The notes below the pieces were generated by a model, which was not told the origin of the DNA, searched no databases, and was given only the letters and a program-made list of their open reading frames with translations. A DNA stretch of 64,000 bases from Centroberyx gerrardi (Eukaryota > Chordata > Actinopteri > Beryciformes > Berycidae). Location of the stretch: the NCBI RefSeq assembly GCF_048128805.1, contig NC_136003.1, positions 22,025,340 to 22,089,339 of the forward strand, given 5' to 3'. How positions within the stretch are numbered: position 1 is the first letter of the stretch; each line of letters begins with the position of its first letter. This document shows positions 2,396 to 32,329 of this stretch, piece after piece. The position numbers and the translations under genes are program-made.

Positions 2396-3176
2396 CTTCA
2401 TTAATCCCCAAGGGCCTATTTTCCTATTACAACGGAGTCTGGGATTCGATGCCAACAGGAGTATATTGCTCACCCTGAAGTTGTCAGGATCCACGTAGAG
2501 TTTTTCACAGTGAAACTGGCTCAGATCGGCGTAAACGCCCTTGATGTTGTCAATGTTCTTCACTGCTTTCTCCAGAGCTTTCAGCACCACCTTGCCGTGC
2601 TCGGCCACTTTGGAGTTACCCAAGATAGCAGCCGCGTTGGAGACATCTCCGAAAGAGCCGAAATACCGCTGGGTCCAGGGGTAGACGATCAGGACTCTGT
2701 TAATGTGGAGAAAATAAGTTTGCAGTGTGATCAGTAGGCCTGATGCATAGCGGCAACTAAAAAGGTGGGTAAACTATGTCCAGTCGGTGACCATCACAAG
2801 GCAAATTTTGAACAAAAATCAATTATACTTTCAGAAAAGCGTGATGATTTATATTTTACTATCTGACATCAGTTTTAAACTATACTTATGATGTAGCCTA
2901 TATACCGACCATAAATTTACCATAGAGATTTATGTCACAAAAAAGTGGGTGAACTATCTTCCGCAAATAAAAGTGGGTAAACTGAATCCAGACATCCCAG
3001 ATTAGCCCTGTAACAGCAAATGACACAGATCCTAGGTTTAACTGAAAGACATGGACGTCAGTTTGTTCATCATCACAGCCCTACCTTGCCAAAGCTTGTG
3101 GTCCAATCTCATCGACATTAATTTTGCCCCAAACAGCCCTGACCGTGCTGCGCTCCTTATCTGTCCACTCAACCAT
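2062..3176 (-). CDS. Beta-globin, complete, three exons
   Basis: Beta-type haemoglobin chain of 147 residues including Met. Exons on the minus strand are 3176-3085 (92 nt), 2696-2474 (223 nt) and 2190-2062 (129 nt with stop), the same sizes as classical vertebrate beta-globin. Introns interrupt Arg30 and follow Arg104 and have GT-AG ends. The start [10 protein letters not shown] is typical of fish beta chains. The distal His lies in AEHGK and the proximal His in SQFHCEKL, followed by Cys at F9. Lys82 in DNIKG is kept. The C-terminus is RYF, so HC3 is Phe, a change known from cathodic fish haemoglobins that lack a Bohr effect. It is divergent from the alpha gene at 6233. Adult, cathodic or embryonic use cannot be decided from sequence alone. 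Intron 1 holds a dispersed repeat and intron 2 a GATA microsatellite. Confidence 0.96.
2322..2395. repeat. (GATA)n microsatellite in beta-globin intron 2
   Basis: About 18 units of GATA/ATAG with two interruptions (AAAT and CTGG). It is followed by CTTCATTAATCCCCAAGG, which resembles the 3' tail of teleost LINE-derived repeats that often end in such tetranucleotide runs. On the gene strand the array reads TATC. Confidence 0.9.
2756..3005. repeat. Dispersed repeat family A, copy 1 (beta-globin intron 1)
   Basis: A stretch with the words GGTGGGTAAACTATG, CCAGTCGGTGA, TTTCAGAAAA, GTAGCCTATAT and GTGGGTGAACT. A diverged copy in the same order and orientation lies at 47035-47290. It fills most of beta-globin intron 1. 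No coding capacity is visible, so it is probably a short non-autonomous element. Confidence 0.7.
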
Positions 3177-6232: not shown

Positions 6233-7776
6233 ATGAGTCTGACTGCCCAGGACAAGTCTGTGGTAAACGCCTTCTGGGGTAAGGTTGCTGGGAAGGCGGA
6301 TGCCATCGGCGCTGAGGCTCTGGGGAGGTAAGATTTCTTCGTTTAGCAATCCAACTAGCTCAGTAGTAGGCTACTGTCTGAGTGGGAAAAAAACATGGAA
6401 TGGTAGCAGAAATTAATGTCATCTTGTCAAATATCAATTATTTCGTTATTCATTCAAACGACGACCTTTGGTGCAGGCAGGGTTAACCCACCTAAACTCA
6501 GCACAGATTTTATTTTTTAGAGTTTTCATACCCTTTTAACCTGAAATAAATCTTTATGAGGTCAATAGTATAGATAATAGAGAGTATCAAACTGATAGGC
6601 TATATGAAGATGGTCTTTGGCAAAAGAGCACAAAGCAATATTTTTCTGAGTATATAATAGATTTTTGTCTATACTGACTGTTTGTCTCATGATGGTCACC
6701 ACATTGTTATTTACCTCTCCACCTCTGCTCTTACTGCAGGATGCTGGTTGTGTATCCCCAGACAAAGACCTACTTCGCCAGCTGGCCGGACCACAGCCCG
6801 GGTTCCGCACCGGTTCAGAAACATGGGAAGACTGTGATGAAGGCCATTACTGATGCCGTCCCCAAAATGGACGACCTGCTCGGTGGGTTGAGCGCTCTCA
6901 GCGACCTGCACGCCTTCAAGCTGCGTGTTGACCCGGGCAATTTCAAGGTAGCTCCCGACTATACATTTAGGCTACTGTAGCCTACCTCATCTATGTTATA
7001 ACTTTAGAAATAGGCTATATTTGCCTACATTTAAAAAAACGTCTGCAAAAACGTCTATCTCAACAAGTCATTTTATCGAGCCTACTACTGAGTCTTGATA
7101 TCTAATATCTTAAACAAGTAAAGAAATCTGCGAACACTGAGAGAAGTTCATTAGTTTCCAATGTAGATCAACTTGTTTTCAATTCATATTTCAATCAATT
7201 TTTGTTTTATTTTTTGTGATTTTCTTAAAACTAGTGGAATGATCTTCCTTATTCTGTCTTGCTTTAGGATATTGACATTCTTTCTAGAAAAAACACCGAA
7301 TCAAGTGAAAATTCATTAGAAACAAATTAAATTGTCTCACCCCATTGGTATAATTTTTAATTAAGGAAAATTCTATTTTAAGACTAAACATTATAGACTA
7401 CGTGACGAACATTTCTGCACTCATTGTACACGCAGAAAATAGGCTATTTCACATGGAATATATTTAAATGTATCGTAGCTTATATACCTATCCAAGAGTA
7501 TTGAAATATGAGCTTATCCCAGGATACATTAATAACATTTACTGATATTATGAAATGTGTGTGTTCATCCCAGGATATGTTATGGGCTATCCTACATAAA
7601 TATATATAGTTAGGTTTTAACAAAATCATTTCTTCATGTATTTTCAGATCCTGTCCCACAACATCCTGGTGACGCTGGCTATCAATTTCCCTGCAGATTT
7701 CACTCCTGAAGTGCACGTGGCTGTGGATAAATTTCTCACAGCTTTGTCCGCTGCTTTGGCTGACAAATACAGATAA
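6233..7776 (+). CDS. Alpha-globin, complete, three exons
   Basis: Alpha-type haemoglobin chain of 143 residues including Met. Exons are 6233-6327 (95 nt), 6740-6947 (208 nt) and 7648-7776 (129 nt with TAA). Introns split Arg31 and follow the FK of DPGNFK, as in other vertebrate alpha genes. The start MSLTAQDKS is the usual fish form, where Ser is exposed and often acetylated. The motifs include [13 protein letters not shown], the distal His in KHGKTV, the proximal His in [10 protein letters not shown] and a C-terminal DKYR. No frame break is seen. It is divergent from the beta gene at 3176, the paired layout common in fish globin clusters. Intron 2 contains a dispersed MITE-like repeat. Stage of expression cannot be told from sequence. 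Confidence 0.97.
7044..7440. repeat. Dispersed MITE-like family B, copy 1 (alpha-globin intron 2)
   Basis: Starts near TCTGCAAAAACGTCT and contains GTTTCCAATGTAGATCAACTTGTTT, AGGATATTGACATTC, AAAACACCGAATCAAGTGAAA and TCTCACCCCATTGG. The same ordered words occur at 29145-29500 and, in part, at 54340-54540. This matches a common teleost non-autonomous element whose ends read CACTGCAAAAA. Confidence 0.7.
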
Positions 7777-7824
7777 AATCAGAATGAGCTTTAACATGTG
7801 ATGTTTGCTCCCTGTTGATGTCAC

Positions 7825-7830
7825 AATAAA
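7825..7830 (+). terminator. Polyadenylation signal of alpha-globin
   Basis: AATAAA 48 bases after the stop codon. Confidence 0.8.
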
Positions 7831-8344
7831 ATCAACTGGCGATAATTGCAATCCTTTTCTTTTTCCATAGCACCACATATAACACCTGGCACAGCCAACA
7901 CGATGCTTAAACGGCTAACATGTAGCCTGTATAACATGGACTTTAAGAATAGGCTACTACATTTAGTCATCTTGTTAACAGCTTTTTCAAATATTAACCC
8001 AATGGCACGTTTGTTTTGTTTTACCTAAGGTATAGGCATTTTCTTTCTAATTACACAGGCCATTCATTCTCAATTAGAAAGCATTGTAATACATTCACTG
8101 TCAGCAATCATTTAGTCATATTGTATTTTTTTAACATGGCTATCGACCTACAGGAGACCGGGGTTGTATGTCACACTTTTTACTTTGGCTTCCATATCTC
8201 CACAACCAAAAGTTAAACAGTATCCAAGATGAATTGAAAGCCTAGGATGTCCTGCAGAATTTGAGTTACCCTTGACGTAATTGTCCTATTTACAAGATGA
8301 GATATTGGATGTTCAATACACTGTGAGCATTTGTGCCCAGGTGA

Positions 8345-8650
8345 AAAAGAAATATAGTTAAGTTGTGCTTTTCTTCGATGTACTTAATACATTTTAATTG
8401 TGCTATACTAAGTGCATACTAAGTGTGTTATTTTGGAACAACTTTAAGTATGTTAAGTGTTCTTTTAGAAATGCTTAAGTTCAATTTTAAGCTAATTGCA
8501 ATATATTTTAATGTACTTAGTTGTGTTAAAATGGAACAACTTCAAGTACCTTTATTGTAATTGAAATGTATTACTTTAAATTACATTTAAAATACCCTTT
8601 TCTGTCGTATTTGAGGTACTCTCTGAGTATATCTTAAGTTTCATATCAAT
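8345..8650. repeat. Left subterminal array of AAGTATACTT-like words
   Basis: Degenerate copies such as GTACTTAATACATTTTAA, ACTAAGTGCATACTAAGTG, TTTAAGTATGTTAAG and TTCAAGTACCTT are spread through this arm. They are less regular than those in the right arm. Confidence 0.6.
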
Positions 8651-8835
8651 GTGTTCCATGGACACTTTCAATAGGATATCAGTTCATTAGTAATTTATTA
8701 CCAGTATACTCCAAGAGCCACTATTAGTATAATAAAAAGCTGTTTAAGACCATTCAATAGCTCATTATTACTGCATTAAAAATATACTACTACTCCAGTA
8801 CAATAAAAAGCAGTAGAAAATATATTTTAAAGCCA

Positions 8836-8852
8836 ACACACACACACACACA
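8836..8852. repeat. (CA)n microsatellite
   Basis: About eight CA units, downstream of the BEN-domain gene. Confidence 0.85.
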
Positions 8853-9261
8853 GAACACTAGAAAAACTTTAATGTAGATCTTGTTGTGTACATTACAGTC
8901 AAAAAATAAATTCCCTGTGTACATAACAAGTACAGCATATATCACATCTTGACCAAAAATAAATTAAAATAATATATTGATCAGTGAGATGGTATGGCCG
9001 AGCTACTTTAAACAGAACAATTTGTAGCACACTTCAAATATACCTCTATTACTGAAATGTAAACTATGAATATGTCATCATTAATGCAATACAAGAATGA
9101 TTTTCTTAGAGGCATGCCTCACATTGCAATGTCCTGCACAAAAAATATAAGAATCTAAAAAATAATGAAGTGCAGAAATAAAGTGCATTTTTTACAAACT
9201 CAAGGTAAGCGTACAAATGGTTGAACCAAACACAGAAACTAAAACTTAAATGTCACCATCT

Positions 9262-12200
9262 TCATCCTTCCAGTGGAGGGTCGGTTTTCTGTGAGTAGGA
9301 CTCATTGCTGCATTTTCTGTGAATGAGGGCTCCCACTTCAGACACTGTGGTATTTGGAAACTGCTTTATCACGGTGTCTGTGGAAGGGACAAAGAGACAT
9401 TTTTTTTTTTATATAAAAGCAAAATGAACCACTGAAATCAGTGTACCCTTATTTTATCTGCAGTCTACAAGAGGAACATTTTTTCATTTTGCTTCAAAGT
9501 TGCTGTAACACAATATGGCACCACGATCTGGTGTCCTTTTGAAAGGTAACCATTTGTAGGTAGAAACCTATATTTTCAAGTTACAGCAGCCGTTCTAAAT
9601 TTTTTAAAATGGCATCCTTTCAGGGTGAAATGTTTGTCCACACGGCAGCCAACCCATTTAATGCTTAGTTCTTTTATGTTAACATGAATGGAAATGTAAT
9701 ACAAAAACGTTGTTAATGTAAATTCAGCCTAGGAGTTCATATATGATGAAATGTTATTAAATAGGTACAATGAATAATCAAAATGAATAAGTCTTGCAGT
9801 ACCCCTGCCAAGTCTACATGGCATTCCAGTAGCACATCAACCAATTTGTGAATTAGTTTAACTGTGTTTAAGTACAAAGGTATCAAGCCAATGATTACCT
9901 ACATGAATACCAATATTTTTAATACATTTATTTTTTAACAGTAAGATTTGTTTATTTTAGTCAGACCCTTGATATGTAGAGACAGCAAAAACAGTGATCA
10001 TGTATAGGATCCACACATACCTATGAGCACATTGACTTTGTGAGGGTCCAACTGGTCCTTTGCCGTTTGAATGCCTGATTTCCCTGTGAGTGTGGATTTG
10101 GCCAGTGTGTCTTTTCCAAAAATCAGCGTGGCCAAGTCTTGGGTGAAAAGAGAAACTTGTGATTTGTTGAGTCTCTCAAACATCCTTTTGGGGACTGTAA
10201 CATCAGAATCAGCGAGTGCAATCTGGGTAGAAAAAGACACAGGCAGGGGTATTATAACAATGAATCACACAATACAAAGCAGGCACTATGACACTATATT
10301 TTCTGAAGTGCTCGTACATACAGACACACAGAGACACAACTAAAATAAATTCTTAGTACAACTATAACATTTTGATAATCACAAGGACTTTTCTAACCAT
10401 TTCTGAGCATCCAGGGATACACAGCTCACTGGAACTTGGGCTTGAACTTGAGCTGAAAGATGAGCCTCTTCTCATGGCCTCAAAGACATCTTTGAGTGAG
10501 GCAACGATCCCAGGAAGCTCTACAAGAAAAAAATGCAGTTGCAAGTATACTTAATTACATAGTTATGGCAGCACTGGCACCTAGTTCTGTTTGTCCTCCA
10601 TTTGTAGTTTACAGTGTCTTTATGAAGTACTGCATGACTGTTGTTAACATTAAATCTTTATTATTATTATTATTATTCTTTTCTTGATTTTGCTGTGCTA
10701 AGGCACCAAATTCAGACTTGCATCAAGGCAAGGTTCAAGTTGGGTATAGTAGGTAAAGGTTTGGTTCAACCATAAAAAGTTGAATACAGGAGATAATACT
10801 ACAATGCTAATATACAATGGTAAAGTTAAGGAGAAATTTTCAGTGTAAATTTGTCTCATGTTAGTAAATGTGGACAAAAGTATAACATCACATGCAACTG
10901 CATGGTTTGGCCAGGTCTTACGAGGGCAGATCACATTTTTTCAAGTCTGTCTTAAAACAAAACTCACATGCCCATATGTACAATGACGTTATTGTTATTA
11001 TTGAGTTATTGGTCGCTGTTCCTCCTCTCCATGCTGGCCCTGAAGAGATACCTTCTCAAAAAGACTGTAACTTTGGAAGATATCCACTTGATTAGTCTAA
11101 CACACACTGTTGACGCTTCATATTAGCTTTAACTTGAACTTTACAATATATTTTTACACACAGAATTTTGTCCCCCATCACTTACATTGGAATTGCATTA
11201 GGAAGGGATCTCTTTACAACTGGTATGGATATGAGGAATGATTACAGTGACCAATAACTCCCTCAATGTAAACATGAGTATGTGAGTATTGTGTTTGAGT
11301 ACATGGATTTATGGCGGTTCTGCCAGTCAGTATCATGTGACATTACCGATACATACCTCGCCCAGAGTGATGTAGTGATCAATCTTCTCTTTGAAGATGT
11401 ATGGGAGGAGAAGCCCAGCCATGGAGTCGATTCCTACAATACACATTACACACAACTTTTACTTCAATAATTTTTTTAAAGGATATACTTTTTAATGTAA
11501 CTGAATTAAACAATTTTTATGTGTCAATACTCAAAATTGCTAACAGAAAAATACAGTATGTAAACTGAATTAGTCAAAATCCTATTTACTACCCTTTCAT
11601 TCAATTCACATCTCATAGGGCCTTGTCAGTTTTTTTAAGTTGGGATCACCAATGCTACCCCAACCAAATTAAAACGTTGATTTAGAGCCAAATAGTCCAA
11701 GCAAGTGCACATACATTAGTTACAAGTAGCATAACATATTACTGTCAGTACCTGGTAAATGCTCAGCTAGGGCATCCTCTCTTGTCTCCTTGTGTAGCTG
11801 TTAATGGCGATTTCCCCTGATCCAGTTTCAGCACATTTGGTAGTACACTGGTGAAACTCTCACTGAAGCGGTGACAGATGTAGCCTGTTGAAGGGTGGAT
11901 GCGCTCGACCTCATCAAACTGTAAAATGATAAAACAGTAACTATTACAACACTGAATACCTCATTAACTCATAGCTAATATTTGATGATGATAATGAAAT
12001 GTTGCAAACCTCACTCTGGAGTTACCAGGCCAAATCTCAATCAATGGCAATTTTGGAAGAAGGAAAAAACCCTGCAATACTATTTTGTGTAGCTGACCCA
12101 TAGGCTAAACACTGTAGGATATTGAGGAAGCAGTAAGGTAAGGTCTAATTGTCTTAATTATTCTATTGCTTTTTTTGTGCACCCTTCCATCCCTAACTAA

Positions 12201-14035
12201 CAGACATGACCTGCAATTTCAAAACAGCTCAACTTGCATCAAGCAATGAGTGTAAGTGGTATTCACCTCCCTTCCCTTCAACAGCAATATCTGTTTACAA
12301 AGTAGTGTTAACACCCCTATATTATTTAGGTCGTTTTGTTATACTTACCCCAGAAGGTGTTCTTAAGAATGGGTATTTTTTCAGTATGCCCTACAGTCCC
12401 CTCTGCAATCTCCAGACACAGTCACAGTCTCTCCATCCACTTCATTGTCTGAGATGCAAAAACAAAAGCATACACAATCATTAGCATAGGCGTACACATG
12501 TGCACACAGATGAACTAGTTAACTGATACAGGGTCATATAATGTAAGGCATCTGCATATCCCTTATTTCATTCAAGCATCAAAATATATTTAGAAAATAG
12601 ATGTTTTTAAGAAGTTTTAATTCAACTATTAGCCTAATTAAGTTATAAATGATTCAATCTTAGCATACTCAATAAATGTTTAAATAAAAGCAAATTCCCT
12701 ATAGCTGACATTACCTCATAAACAATTAGGTTGGCACCATCACTAAATAAACTTGTCACCAGTTGAATCATTTATATGATGTGAGGGGTTTGAAATTATC
12801 CTCAGCTGACAGTCTAATGTTATGCAGCCTACCAATCTACAAATTGTGTCATTGTTTTACATGTCTTACTATCCAAGGACACAAGAAAGAACCCCTATAT
12901 ACATACTGTATGTTTATACAGTAAAAACAAGCAAGGCTGTCTTAAACATGACCAAGGCGATCGGGTGGCAGATCGGTATTTTATTTCCGTTCTAAATATA
13001 AGAATGTTGGCGGCCAGCTTACATAATGGGAATACCTCTTTTTGATGCAACTGTTGTATAGCCTAACTAAATCGCTATGTTTGCCATATGCACAAAAAAC
13101 ACTATTAAGGGGAAGCAGGAGTCGCTCTCTGCCTCTCATCCACTCAATGTGCCTTTGGAAACACACAGGCTAACAGAGGTCGGAGTGGTAGACCGCTAAA
13201 AAAAAAATAGTTCTCTAGTTCTCTCCTTGAGAAAAGATTTTCAGCAACTTTTACATCAGATGTTAACACTATCCAAAATTCTATTTAAGGATTTTGATAA
13301 AGGCTATAACTAACGTATAAGGGCCAGGCATAGCATTAGGCTATGTACATTTAGAGGATTAACATTAGTTGCTCAGTCATCATTGCCCAAGTTAACTTAA
13401 CTCCATTGGAGCATATGAGTGGGGACTGGTAGAAACAGGCTAAGCAATGAGCCTGCCTAACTGTTAGATATTTAAGGAAAAAAACGCTATGGCTGAACTT
13501 GTGATTTCAATTTAGCTAGTTATCTTTTGAAATCGGAATTATTTTTCTTAAGAATAGTGCATTTCCAATTAGCCTGAAAAATGCACGCAAGTCCCAGGCT
13601 GTATTGATTCAGATCTATCTCCGTGTTTTCCTGCTCTTGGTTAACTCTTTTAGGTTAGCTCAATAGCTAACCTAGCTAGCTATGTGCTAGTATGTGGCTA
13701 ACTTTAGCTAGCTGGCTAGAATTCCTATATTAACCAAAACATGTGTAGGTGGATGATAAAATCGCTCCTGAAATAACGTGTACCTACAGACTCATCTTAT
13801 TTTAGCAACAAGCCATGTTGTGCAATCCTGAATTGGTAGAATGATTTCACACACACGATGAAAAGATGATTAGCCTTGCTACTTAGCTAACATTAGCATA
13901 ATTAGAGCATGCTAGTTACCAAGATCTTAAGAGTTAACTTACCCCTGCATTTCTGTGCCTCTTCGTCACTTGTATTCCAGCTTCTATTGGTGTTTTAATG
14001 AGCCCATCCGTTGACAAACTCGATAAACGAGACAT
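9262..14035 (-). pseudogene. BEN-domain protein gene, multi-exon, with frame breaks
   Basis: Inferred minus-strand exons are 14035-13943 (start MSRLSSLSTDGL), 12448-12349, 11918-11752, 11433-11357, 10517-10398, 10222-10021 and 9377-9262 (stop TGA). The last four join in frame: DSMAGLLLPYIFKEKID, then a Ser-rich linker, then a BEN domain over the last two exons (VPKRMFERLNKSQ ... LDPHKVNVLI / DTVIKQFPNTTVSEVGALI). BEN domains bind DNA or proteins in chromatin factors and also occur in mobile-element and viral proteins. Exon 12448-12349 needs a one-base shift between GDCRA and ILKKYPFL. Exon 11918-11752 needs one between GKSPL and KETREDALAEHLPG. The first two exons also do not join in a shared open frame. 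The upstream part resembles teleost proteins with a YPFL...EVERIHP...F...LPNVLKL pattern. It lies wholly inside the inverted-repeat unit, so it may be a decayed cargo or transposition gene. Neighbouring globin and nprl3 exons are intact, so poor sequence quality is an unlikely cause. Confidence 0.65.
10658..10678. repeat. (TTA)n microsatellite
   Basis: Seven TTA units in an intron of the BEN-domain gene. Confidence 0.9.
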
Positions 14036-14529
14036 TTTGGCACCACTTTACACCTGAGGGCACCACTGTGAGAGCGCGCGGTACCAAAAGGCTGAGATGA
14101 AGGCTGACCGTTAGTTTTGAAAGGGGGAGGGGTCAAAATCCCGATAGCCGGGAAAGTCGTCCTACCGCCCACTGCTGGCAGCATTAATTGTGTTTTCTGT
14201 GTAATGTAATTTACATGCTGACATTAAAATGATAGCCATTTCATGAGCCTACTGATTACTTTTTGATTAAGCACACAACCATTTTTTTTTACCATATCAT
14301 TTTGCGTACTAATGAAGACATGGATAAATATAAAAACTATAATCCGAAAACACGTGAAAATGACAAATGTTAAGCAAGCTAAGCTTTTAAGTAAGCCAGC
14401 CTCACTGACTCATATGCAGACCGCACAGACTGAGAGCTGTATTAAAATAAAACTGCACATTAAACTGATAAAGCCCCTAACTCCCCCTGAACCCCTAAAT
14501 CTATACATATGATACTGCCAAATTTGCAT

Positions 14530-14735
14530 GCTCTTATTGTACCTTAAATTGGAGGTAAAATGGTACAAATGTGAACTTTTTGCTGTCAGAAATGTCTGTG
14601 TACCTTTTAGGTGCAAAAAACGGTACACAATTAGTATGTTAAGGTCCACTAGCATACCTTTGAGGGTACATTAGGGACAAGTGTACCTGTAGGGACAGAA
14701 ATGGACCTGTACTGTACCCCTATTTCTGAGTGTAT
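14530..14735. repeat. Short dispersed element ending in CCCCTATTTCTGAGTGTA
   Basis: Contains GGTACAAATGTGAACTTTTTG, GGGTACATTAGGGACAAGTG and GACCTGTACTGTACCCCTA. I recognise the end TGTACCCCTATTTCTGAGTG from repeats seen widely in fish genomes. It lies between the BEN-domain gene start and the right array. Confidence 0.5.
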
Positions 14736-14824
14736 ATGTAATTCCTCCATATTGAACAAGACTTATTTGACGGGGCATCAAGGAAGGCCTCAACCTTTCC
14801 AGAGAAGGTTGGTTCTTTTCCTTA

Positions 14825-15415
14825 GAATAAAGTACTCTTCATGTAATTATACTACAATACACTTTTAGCGAAATGAATTTCATAAGTACACTAAATTACC
14901 ACTATAAGTATTTGCAATTTAATATACTTTTTCAAAGTACACTGAAGTACAGCTTAAAATGAACTAACATTAAAGTGCACTGTTTGTAAGTATACTTAAA
15001 TACACTTCTAATGAAGTGAAATTAAAGTACACTTTAATAAAGCATACTAATAGTGTATTACAAAGGACTTGAAAATAAGTATACCTTTCATAAGTACACT
15101 AAATTACCACTATAAGTATTTGCAATTTAGTATACTTTTTAAAAGTACACTTACGTAAAATTTACAATACACTTACAATAAAGTACACTTTTTATAAGTT
15201 CACTGAAATACCACTTTAAGTATTGCAGAATTAGTATATTTATTTTTAGTACACTGAAGTTGAACTTAATGACATCTATTTTGAAGTACACTTTTTAAAA
15301 GTACATGTTAAATATACTTTAAATTAAGCACAAAAAGTAAAAGTATACTTGTAATAACTTTTGTATACTTAAATTATATTTCTAATACACTAAAGTATAC
15401 TACTTTTTGACCTGG
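14825..15415. repeat. Right subterminal array of AAGTATACTT / AAGTACACTT words
   Basis: Perfect palindromic AAGTATACTT occurs at 14988-14997 and 15341-15350, with many one-base variants. A longer unit of about 60 bases starting ATAAGTACACTAAATTACCA is present three times, at about 14882, 15089 and 15194, with growing divergence. The array runs up to the inner terminal repeat CTTTTTGACCTGGG. Confidence 0.8.
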
Positions 15416-15633
15416 GTGACAACCATCCCCACAACGGGGTTGGTTGTCACACAGTATGGGGTCGGTTGTCACAATTTTTACACCTGAAGGTGAGGGTGGC
15501 ATAAATGATTGTTTGACCACATTTGAGAATCATTCAACTTTATTTACAATCATTGTCAAAAAGGTAACACCAGTATGATTATAGTTCATGTTTTCAACTT
15601 TCTTTATTTCTTTTTAGAAAACCATCACATTTA

Positions 15634-15636
<3 letters not shown>

Positions 15637-15666
<30 letters not shown>
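15637..15666. repeat. (TA)n microsatellite
   Basis: About 15 TA units between inner and outer right termini of the transposon-like unit. Confidence 0.9.
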
Positions 15667-15668
<2 letters not shown>

Positions 15669-16169
15669 AAAAGAGCATGTATTTAAGTTTAATTCCTCTC
15701 CAAACATTTATAAACAAAACAACAATTTTACTAACATTCATAAACAGGGCCAATCACATAACTAGGCCTGTAGAGCTGGCTGTCACATGTGACAACCAAC
15801 CCCAATGGGGGAGTTATGCTAAAGGTCATGCTAACAACTTTGCTATATCCAAGGGAACAAACACAACATTTATACTGTAGCTCTCCTTGCCCTCTTTTCA
15901 GTGATAAAGTTGATTTTAAAGTATATTCATACATCAACATAGTTCTACAAAACAAAAATCAAGACTTTGAAAATTTAGTTTGAGTCATAAAAAACAGAAA
16001 ATGCCCCCTTACCTCAAATCCTTTACATCCATACACAAACTGACCACAAAGGTAACCTTTGTCCTCAAGGCTGAACATTTCATTATCAAAATTTTTAAAC
16101 AGCGCCCCCTGGTTTGAAGGATATAAGCAATGTGACAGCCAACCGTGTGACAACCAACCCCGGTCTCCC

Positions 16170-16300
16170 CTATGAAGCGGGCTGTGACCAGAAGATTGTT
16201 GGTTTGAATCCCCAGAACGGCTGAGCCCTCCCTCATCAACCACTGTCCCTTGGGCAAGCTGGCAGTTTAAAAACGCTCTCAGCAGCACGAGGTGAAAATC
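16170..16300. repeat. tRNA-derived SINE fragment
   Basis: GAAGCGGGCTGTGACCAGAA followed by GTTGGTTTGAATCCCC has the look of a tRNA-type B box in fish SINEs, followed by ACCACTGTCCCTTGGGCAAG. The 5' part is missing; it begins at the outer transposon end. Confidence 0.5.
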
Positions 16301-16679
16301 TGTAGTGTGAGCTGTCATATCACTTGACTTTATTCTATCAAATTTGTCTAGGATGTTGCAGATGACAGCTAGTGTGTGAGAGAGAGATATTCACATGCAT
16401 CCGGAGGGGGGGTGCTAATCAAAACGGAAGGGTAATTCTGCTTCTCGACACCCTAAATAACGTTTTTAAAATGTTGAGAAAACAGATTATGATTTTTGTC
16501 TTTTATTCGTCTCCGCCAACAAAAACTGTTCCCTCAGCATTCTAATAACAAATGTTCCCAAGCTACACACAAGTTACAGCAACACATAAACTATTAGACC
16601 ACCTGTAAAGCGGAGTGAATCATACATAATAAAACGGACGGTTATATTATATATCAGATACTGCTGTAATGTCTCCTGT

Positions 16680-17075: not shown

Positions 17076-32329
<15,254 letters not shown>

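Follow-up and report, generated by a model that had tools for sequence, protein, structure and literature searches.

What is a spliced gene with a BEN domain doing between the alpha-globin and nprl3-like exons of a fish, enclosed by two pairs of inverted repeats? The BEN domain is a DNA-binding part of proteins that, to our knowledge, is not usually known from mobile elements. The locus lies in a 64,000-nucleotide stretch of Centroberyx gerrardi DNA (C7:22025340-22089339), called the window below and used for all positions given without a contig label. The original prediction treated the repeats as the ends of one nested unit with the gene as its cargo. The locus consists instead of two transposons, an outer one at 8151-16170 and an inner one at 8336-15416, with the BEN gene in the inner element only; each has its own limits and target-site duplications, a sister copy of the outer element holds an empty site, and further copies of the inner element carry the same gene. 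The explanation preferred here, at a probability of roughly 0.7, is that these are nested cut-and-paste transposons, the inner copies having been moved in trans, with the BEN gene as a decaying second gene from an EnSpm/Plavaka-like (CMCT) two-gene family.

The inverted repeats were found where they had been predicted, the outer 24-bp pair at 8153-8176 and 16145-16168 (22/24 matches) and the inner 14-bp pair at 8336-8349 and 15403-15416 (13/14 matches). Neither pair taken alone exceeds chance: inverted 24-mers matching at 22 or more positions occur in 3 of 60 dinucleotide shuffles of 7800-16600, and two or more matches to the inner end (up to 2 mismatches) appear in 17 of 100 shuffles of the window. 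The motif TGTGACAACCAACCCC has seven matches in the 64 kb (up to 3 mismatches; 0.48 expected), all within 8160-16161, a number reached in 0 of 100 shuffles. The repeat pairs are taken as real because of this clustering and because copies occur elsewhere in the same genome, the fish's own assembly of 778,876,752 bases in 278 contigs, labelled here C1, C3, C7 and so on. Copy counts for repeats are lower bounds throughout.

A search of this assembly with 8153-9000 gave at least 11 matches, one of them the window itself. Three (C16, C20 and C3; 95-96%) start at 8316, 8330 and 8336, and four, at three loci (C11 in two pieces, C24 and C16:2287226), are confined to 8153-8334; three more (C18, C9 and C7:21370462) are related to the inner left end but diverged, at 71-77%. 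Because the matches split into sets of outer and inner ends, the two are assigned to different elements. The outer element comprises the following features, none of which has a strand:

8149..8150: left target-site duplication TA (flank comparison)
8151..8333: left part of the outer element, its terminal repeat beginning (CA)GGAGACCGGGGTTG.. (91% copies at C11, C24 and C16; flank comparison)
15419..16170: right part of the outer element, with the repeated motif TGTGACAACCAACCCC and the right terminal repeat (copies and flank comparison)
16171..16172: right target-site duplication TA (flank comparison)

Without the inner element, the outer element of the window measures about 0.94 kb. TA lies on both flanks in all three outer copies read at both ends (the window, C16:2287226 and C24:1287642), a count that leaves out the C11 copy, whose right end was not identified and which contains about 0.7 kb of additional sequence near 8288. 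Terminal inverted repeats and a TA duplication in 3/3 copies are what a TA-duplicating non-autonomous element should have, and the outer element is likewise short: it is a short non-autonomous DNA transposon with TA duplications, its superfamily not nameable without a transposase.

The inner element interrupts it and has these features:

8334..8335, no strand: left target-site duplication TG (the C11 outer copy has a single dinucleotide, TA, there)
8336..15416, no strand: inner element, 7,081 bp, carrier of the BEN gene, ends CCCAGGTSAAAAAG (copies at C16, C20 and C3)
8336..8349, plus strand: left terminal inverted repeat CCCAGGTGAAAAAG (pattern search, copy comparison)
8350..8600, no strand: AT-rich, degenerate subterminal region on the left (matches the right array in inverted orientation)
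14820..15400, no strand: right subterminal AT-rich array, AAGTATACTT / AGTACACTT (repeat analysis)
15403..15416, minus strand: right terminal inverted repeat CCCAGGTCAAAAAG (pattern search, copy comparison)
15417..15418, no strand: right target-site duplication TG (copy comparison)

The order of events is recorded in the outer copy on C11. There, the base matching 8334 is joined to the base matching 15416 ('..GAGCATTTG-TA-ACAACC..'), and a single dinucleotide, TA, takes the place of the two TG that flank the inner element in the window. This copy is a paralogous empty site for the inner insertion. The outer copies at C24 and C16:2287226 lack the region around the insertion point and are uninformative on nesting. 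Subterminal repeats had been predicted behind both ends, and they are real; they are also lopsided, and they divide between the two elements. The AT-rich array and its degenerate left counterpart, an inverted match of 61% over 277 columns, belong to the inner element, and the GGGGTTGGTTGTCACA copies are part of the outer one.

All five inner copies read at both ends show CCCAGG..CCTGGG termini and a 2-bp duplication, which is TG in the window, TA at C16, TG at C20, AA at C3 and CA at C12. The inner element thus has the terminal inverted repeats, duplications, several copies and empty site of a cut-and-paste transposon. The predicted mobility holds, in that the ends recur elsewhere in the same genome and the BEN gene travels inside them: the copies at C16, C20 and C3 have both target-site duplications and BEN exons, and are about 98% identical to the window copy by substitutions (126/6653, 92/4293 and 116/6817, respectively, with 129/3378 for C12). 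A search with the right end gave seven matches at six loci, the window, C3, C16, C20, C12 and C4, the last holding only about 1 kb of the inner right end. The C12 copy matches window 11295-15416 in four pieces (96.9, 91.7, 98.5 and 95.3%), and has a different left end, which is assigned to this copy through the terminal repeat and duplication there. The C20 copy is without 10577-13336. Those on C16 and C3 have an insert of 1.3-1.6 kb at window position 11499 (11499-11506), absent from the window copy. This extra sequence was considered as a missing gene and set aside, since it looks hAT-type, with ends CAGGGTCC..GGACCCTG and an 8-bp duplication, AACTGAAT. By eye, C3 and C20 have traces of another insert in common.

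The terminal pattern CCCAGGTSAAAAAG has 678 matches in the genome at up to one mismatch, against 403 for a reversed control. Among those listed, 23 are exact: nine are ends of known copies, and the other 14, examined further, comprise one true right end (C4), one weak relative (C18:5503412), one marginal case (C2) and 11 sites with no match to the element ends. On C18, a 77% match to the inner left-end region is followed about 1 kb on by the last BEN exon, at 72% in DNA and 57% in protein; within the piece read, the terminal repeat and exon e6 were not found. Because of this diverged left end and BEN exon, BEN and the inner ends seem to have been long together, which speaks against recent capture. 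Across C18:5474988-5503425, the left-end relatives and BEN exon stand about 28 kb from a weak right-end relative; this stretch could be one much-interrupted old copy.

The gene itself bears out the prediction of a spliced minus-strand gene with a C-terminal BEN domain. Its exons, all on the minus strand, are given in coding order:

13943..14035, minus strand: first coding exon e1 (MSRLSSLSTDGLIKTPIEAGIQVTKRHRN[AS]G) (exon model, copy comparison)
12348..12448, minus strand: exon e2 region (.. GILKKYPFLRTPSG), start and frame uncertain (exon model)
11752..11918, minus strand: exon e3 (FDEVERIHPSTGYICHRFSES..), with frame changes within (exon model, copy comparison)
11357..11433, minus strand: exon e4 (G-IDSMAGLLLPYIFKEKIDHYITLGE) (exon model, genome matches)
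10398..10519, minus strand: exon e5, acceptor at 10519, or at 10517 to keep the frame with e4
10021..10222, minus strand: exon e6, N-terminal half of the BEN domain (exon model, Pfam, genome matches)
9262..9377, minus strand: last exon e7, C-terminal half of the BEN domain and stop codon (exon model, Pfam, copies)

Joined, the exons match Pfam PF10523 with E 3.5e-10 and 40.4 bits, above the curated cut-off of 23.2 for membership in the family. The domain spans e6 and e7 and matches PDB entries 4ix7 (E 5.7e-8), 7yul (8.1e-4) and 4x0g (1.6e-3). In having the domain at its C terminus, the gene resembles known BEN-domain proteins (4ix7 RE55538p, BEND6, Bsg25A), from which it differs in sitting in a mobile element and in an N-terminal part that matches no Pfam family at E 10. 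In-frame joins link e5, e6 and e7, the 3' part of e3 with e4, and e4 with e5 if the acceptor at 10517 is used. An own-genome protein search matched e6 and e7 in four copies, those of the window, C16, C20 and C3; elsewhere, it gave none at E 0.001 among the 24 scored candidates, a lower bound obtained with the exons as query rather than with the PF10523 profile.

The state of the gene is one of decay. Exons e4 to e7 are open in the window copy, a frame change inside e3 is common to the window, C16, C3 and C12, the C20 copy is without e2-e4, and e7 has suffered a frame-changing loss in the C16 copy. A relative of e3 on C1 has one open frame of 142 amino acids (aa) without the frame change. The C12 copy shares the first exons, but its last exon is a different one, ending in VQFVDQDWKTAIARRGLNVVKVDGVEVCHWTGVA and a stop (L034:3915-5120), so the C-terminal part of the gene seems exchangeable. 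Substitutions in exons and in the rest of the element were compared for all ten pairs of copies, with synonymous and other changes pooled. Exon divergence lies below that of the rest in five pairs: window-C16 (12/870 vs 114/5783), window-C3 (8/813 vs 108/6004), window-C12 (10/344 vs 119/3034), C16-C12 (11/344 vs 109/3007) and C3-C12 (11/338 vs 97/2873). It lies above in the other five: window-C20 (15/524 vs 77/3769), C16-C20 (17/519 vs 55/3466), C16-C3 (13/809 vs 81/5615), C20-C3 (16/521 vs 47/3763) and C20-C12 (6/93 vs 65/1449). We read this as no clear selection on the BEN protein since the copies spread.

How, then, did the element move? No transposase had been recognised in the unit, and the searches agree. 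Pfam searches of the three gene-strand frames of the C16 copy returned no transposase, only BEN (below cut-off, in an unspliced frame) and one chance match, and tblastn with transposase frames from C7 and C4 and a fragment from C21 gave none at E 0.01 in the window, C16, C20, C3, C12 and C18 pieces. Six-frame Pfam searches found none in the neighbourhoods on C9 (L013) and C4 (L051). Because no transposase was found, the exons diverge about as the rest does and the frame break is shared, the BEN copies look like passengers moved in trans.

A candidate source of transposase emerges from the N-terminal exons, which matched two further loci: C1 through e3 (E 6.9e-27) and C21 through e4 (E 0.0034 as protein; 84% over 201 bases as DNA). 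At both, the first-exon relatives lie within about 0.9 kb of transposase remnants bearing PPDIMHD. On C1, degenerate transposase blocks that match the transposase at C4:31997365 (E 4.9e-10) end about 0.8 kb from e3, and blocks and exons point at each other; on C21 there are two transposase fragments, about 0.8 kb (E 6.5e-7) and about 4.5 kb (E 1.2e-11) away from e4. The C21 fragment has 13 genome matches, three at the C1 and C21 loci themselves and ten elsewhere, where the longest open frame reaches 790 aa. The C4:31997365 transposase matches Pfam Plavaka with E 4.9e-4, and the C7 transposase contains by eye the motifs ADNLGAH, CRFC, PPDVLHDLLEG, HFVEH and RFEAKH, in agreement with the motifs C(2)C and H(3-4)H that PMC12730594 gives for the CMCT clade. 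Motifs of the DDE/C(2)C/H(3-4)H type are visible by eye in the C7 and C4 transposases and partly in the remnants beside the gene's relatives.

In the stretch C7:3672500-3682000 (L058), the 790-aa open transposase frame is accompanied by a zinc-finger frame and, on the same strand, by a second gene. A suspicion by eye that the N-terminal part of the BEN gene resembles this second gene was unsupported (blastp E 0.20, hhalign probability 0.4). Matches to the gene's exons at C2:5500643 and C14:30404230 were dismissed as LINE-like by eye, and three stretches on viral contigs that matched a pattern were not confirmed.

These observations suggest the following course. A non-autonomous outer element of about 0.94 kb first inserted between alpha-globin and nprl3, duplicating TA, and the 7,081-bp inner element then inserted into it with a 2-bp duplication. 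Changed copies that retained the ends were probably mobilised in trans by the transposase of an autonomous two-gene element, and the BEN gene, judged by proximity, may be the former second, DNA-binding gene of an EnSpm/Plavaka-like family. In plant En/Spm there are two gene products, one of which, TNPA, binds subterminal repeats. By analogy, the BEN domain may once have bound the subterminal AGTAYACT repeats. With palindromic sites counted on both strands, AGTAYACT or its complement occurs 16 times at 14780-15416, five times in the interior, and not at all in 8336-8700 or in the window outside the outer element. We therefore offer only tentatively, as an idea with perhaps one chance in three, that fish have an EnSpm/Plavaka-type family whose BEN protein is a TNPA-like second gene binding AT-rich subterminal repeats, with an exchangeable C-terminal domain (BEN in the window, C16, C20 and C3; another short exon in C12 and C21).

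The likeness to EnSpm/CACTA-Plavaka (CMCT) elements is partial. According to PMC12730594, CMCT elements make target duplications of 2-5 bp, their termini are mostly 5'-CA..TG-3', and Plavaka ends read TGT..ACA or CATCA..TGATG. The inner element shares subterminal repeats and a duplication within that range (2 bp in 5/5 copies read at both ends), and its gene's relatives stand beside such transposase remnants at C1 and C21. It differs in its CCC..GGG ends, in its BEN gene and in the failure to find a transposase in copies that have these ends. Several points weigh against the preferred reading. The CCCAGG..CCTGGG ends fit neither the Plavaka termini nor the CA..TG described for 'most cases' in that source; the Plavaka match on C4 falls below the Pfam cut-off (19.9 vs 26.3 bits); and for the C7 transposase of 790 aa, Pfam has no matching family at E 1. 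Of the ten loci, two were read, C4:31997365 and C7:3676669; neither has a convincing match to the gene's exons, and the C7 element has on the same strand a second gene that differs from the BEN gene. The BEN exons themselves were not seen beside transposase, and the C21 locus is rearranged. C1 and C21 each have one terminal-repeat match, with 2 mismatches (L053:4847 and L054:6941), near chance by estimate, so that transposase and gene relatives there count as neighbours rather than as one element; the C1 match does have the right strand and precedes the transposase blocks by about 0.5 kb. The two-gene link would accordingly be one of proximity at 2/2 loci (C1 and C21), neither a complete element. 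Exons less diverged than the rest in 5/10 pairs, all changes pooled, also count here, and the lack of an exact AGTAYACT copy at the left end speaks against a symmetric two-ended array in the window copy.

Which other accounts fit? The inner element may belong to another or unnamed superfamily that makes 2-bp duplications, the remnants at C1 and C21 being unrelated neighbours. Its CCC..GGG ends and the lack of a clear shared end at C1 or C21 point that way, and this is the strongest of the competitors, though a doubtful one, at little better than one in four: transposase remnants adjoin the gene's relatives at 2/2 extra loci, and the named candidate fails, since ISL2EU duplicates AT in the target A|AT|T (PMC4482050) and the five inner duplications (TG, TA, TG, AA and CA) rule it out. 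Somewhat less likely is capture, in which a non-autonomous element took up a cellular BEN gene with its introns as a neutral passenger. The retained introns, the failure to find a transposase and exons that diverge about as fast as the rest all suit it. Against it stand the first exons beside transposase remnants, the old-looking association on C18, where the last BEN exon lies about 1 kb from the 77% left-end match, and the own-genome exon search, which, run with exons and not the PF10523 profile, gave no BEN exon at E 0.001 beyond the four element copies.

Domestication of the BEN gene from a transposon into a functioning host gene is highly improbable, its open e4-e7 in the window notwithstanding: the e3 frame change and unclear e2 are common to copies, and changes are about as frequent in exons as elsewhere. 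Least credible of all is one large transposon bearing both sets of ends. The gene lies within both pairs, and a motif at 15415-15430, beside the right end of the inner element, is similar to the outer motif, but the inner copies at C16, C20 and C3 end at CCCAGGT with other flanks, the outer copies at C11, C24 and C16:2287226 show no inner sequence, and the duplications differ, TA for the outer and a variable 2 bp for the inner element. Separate copies and the empty site refute this form. Nested transposons with a decaying second gene moved in trans remain the reading we favour.

The surroundings of the insertions were read with probe sequences and by eye. Alpha-globin exons lie at 6233-7773 (plus strand) and a beta-like globin exon at 2453-2704 (minus strand), and nprl3-like exons, as we take them to be by eye, begin at about 25.2 kb of the window. 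The interval from alpha-globin to the nprl3-like exons is longer by about 8 kb, as predicted, through two successive insertions. Positions 1-199 and 1960-2158 form an inverted duplicate, identical at 198 of 199 positions, that takes in the apparent last exon of a beta-type globin; perhaps these are two inverted globin genes kept alike through gene conversion. A hairpin-like inverted repeat at 26949-27124 in the nprl3-like region has 71-nt arms, 96% complementary, around a 34-nt spacer. No Rfam family reaches its gathering score in the window.

For comparisons of enhancer distance, the locus calls for caution, as about 8 kb between alpha-globin and nprl3 are transposon insertions. Its wider meaning concerns the BEN domain. 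DNA transposons that carry TET/JBP likewise hold a chromatin-related gene; the inner element differs from them in having BEN, in a fish, with no transposase found in the carrying copies. In the literature searched (titles and abstract openings, with subscription papers and Repbase reports lying outside it), no DNA transposon with a BEN gene is described, and the word BEN is absent from the main text of PMC12730594. If the BEN gene is indeed a transposon gene, the domain would join a known set. THAP, Myb/SANT and similar modules that bind DNA move back and forth between transposons and host regulators. BEN domains would then be one more module of this kind, and transposons could serve as a comparison for testing where some vertebrate BEN proteins came from.

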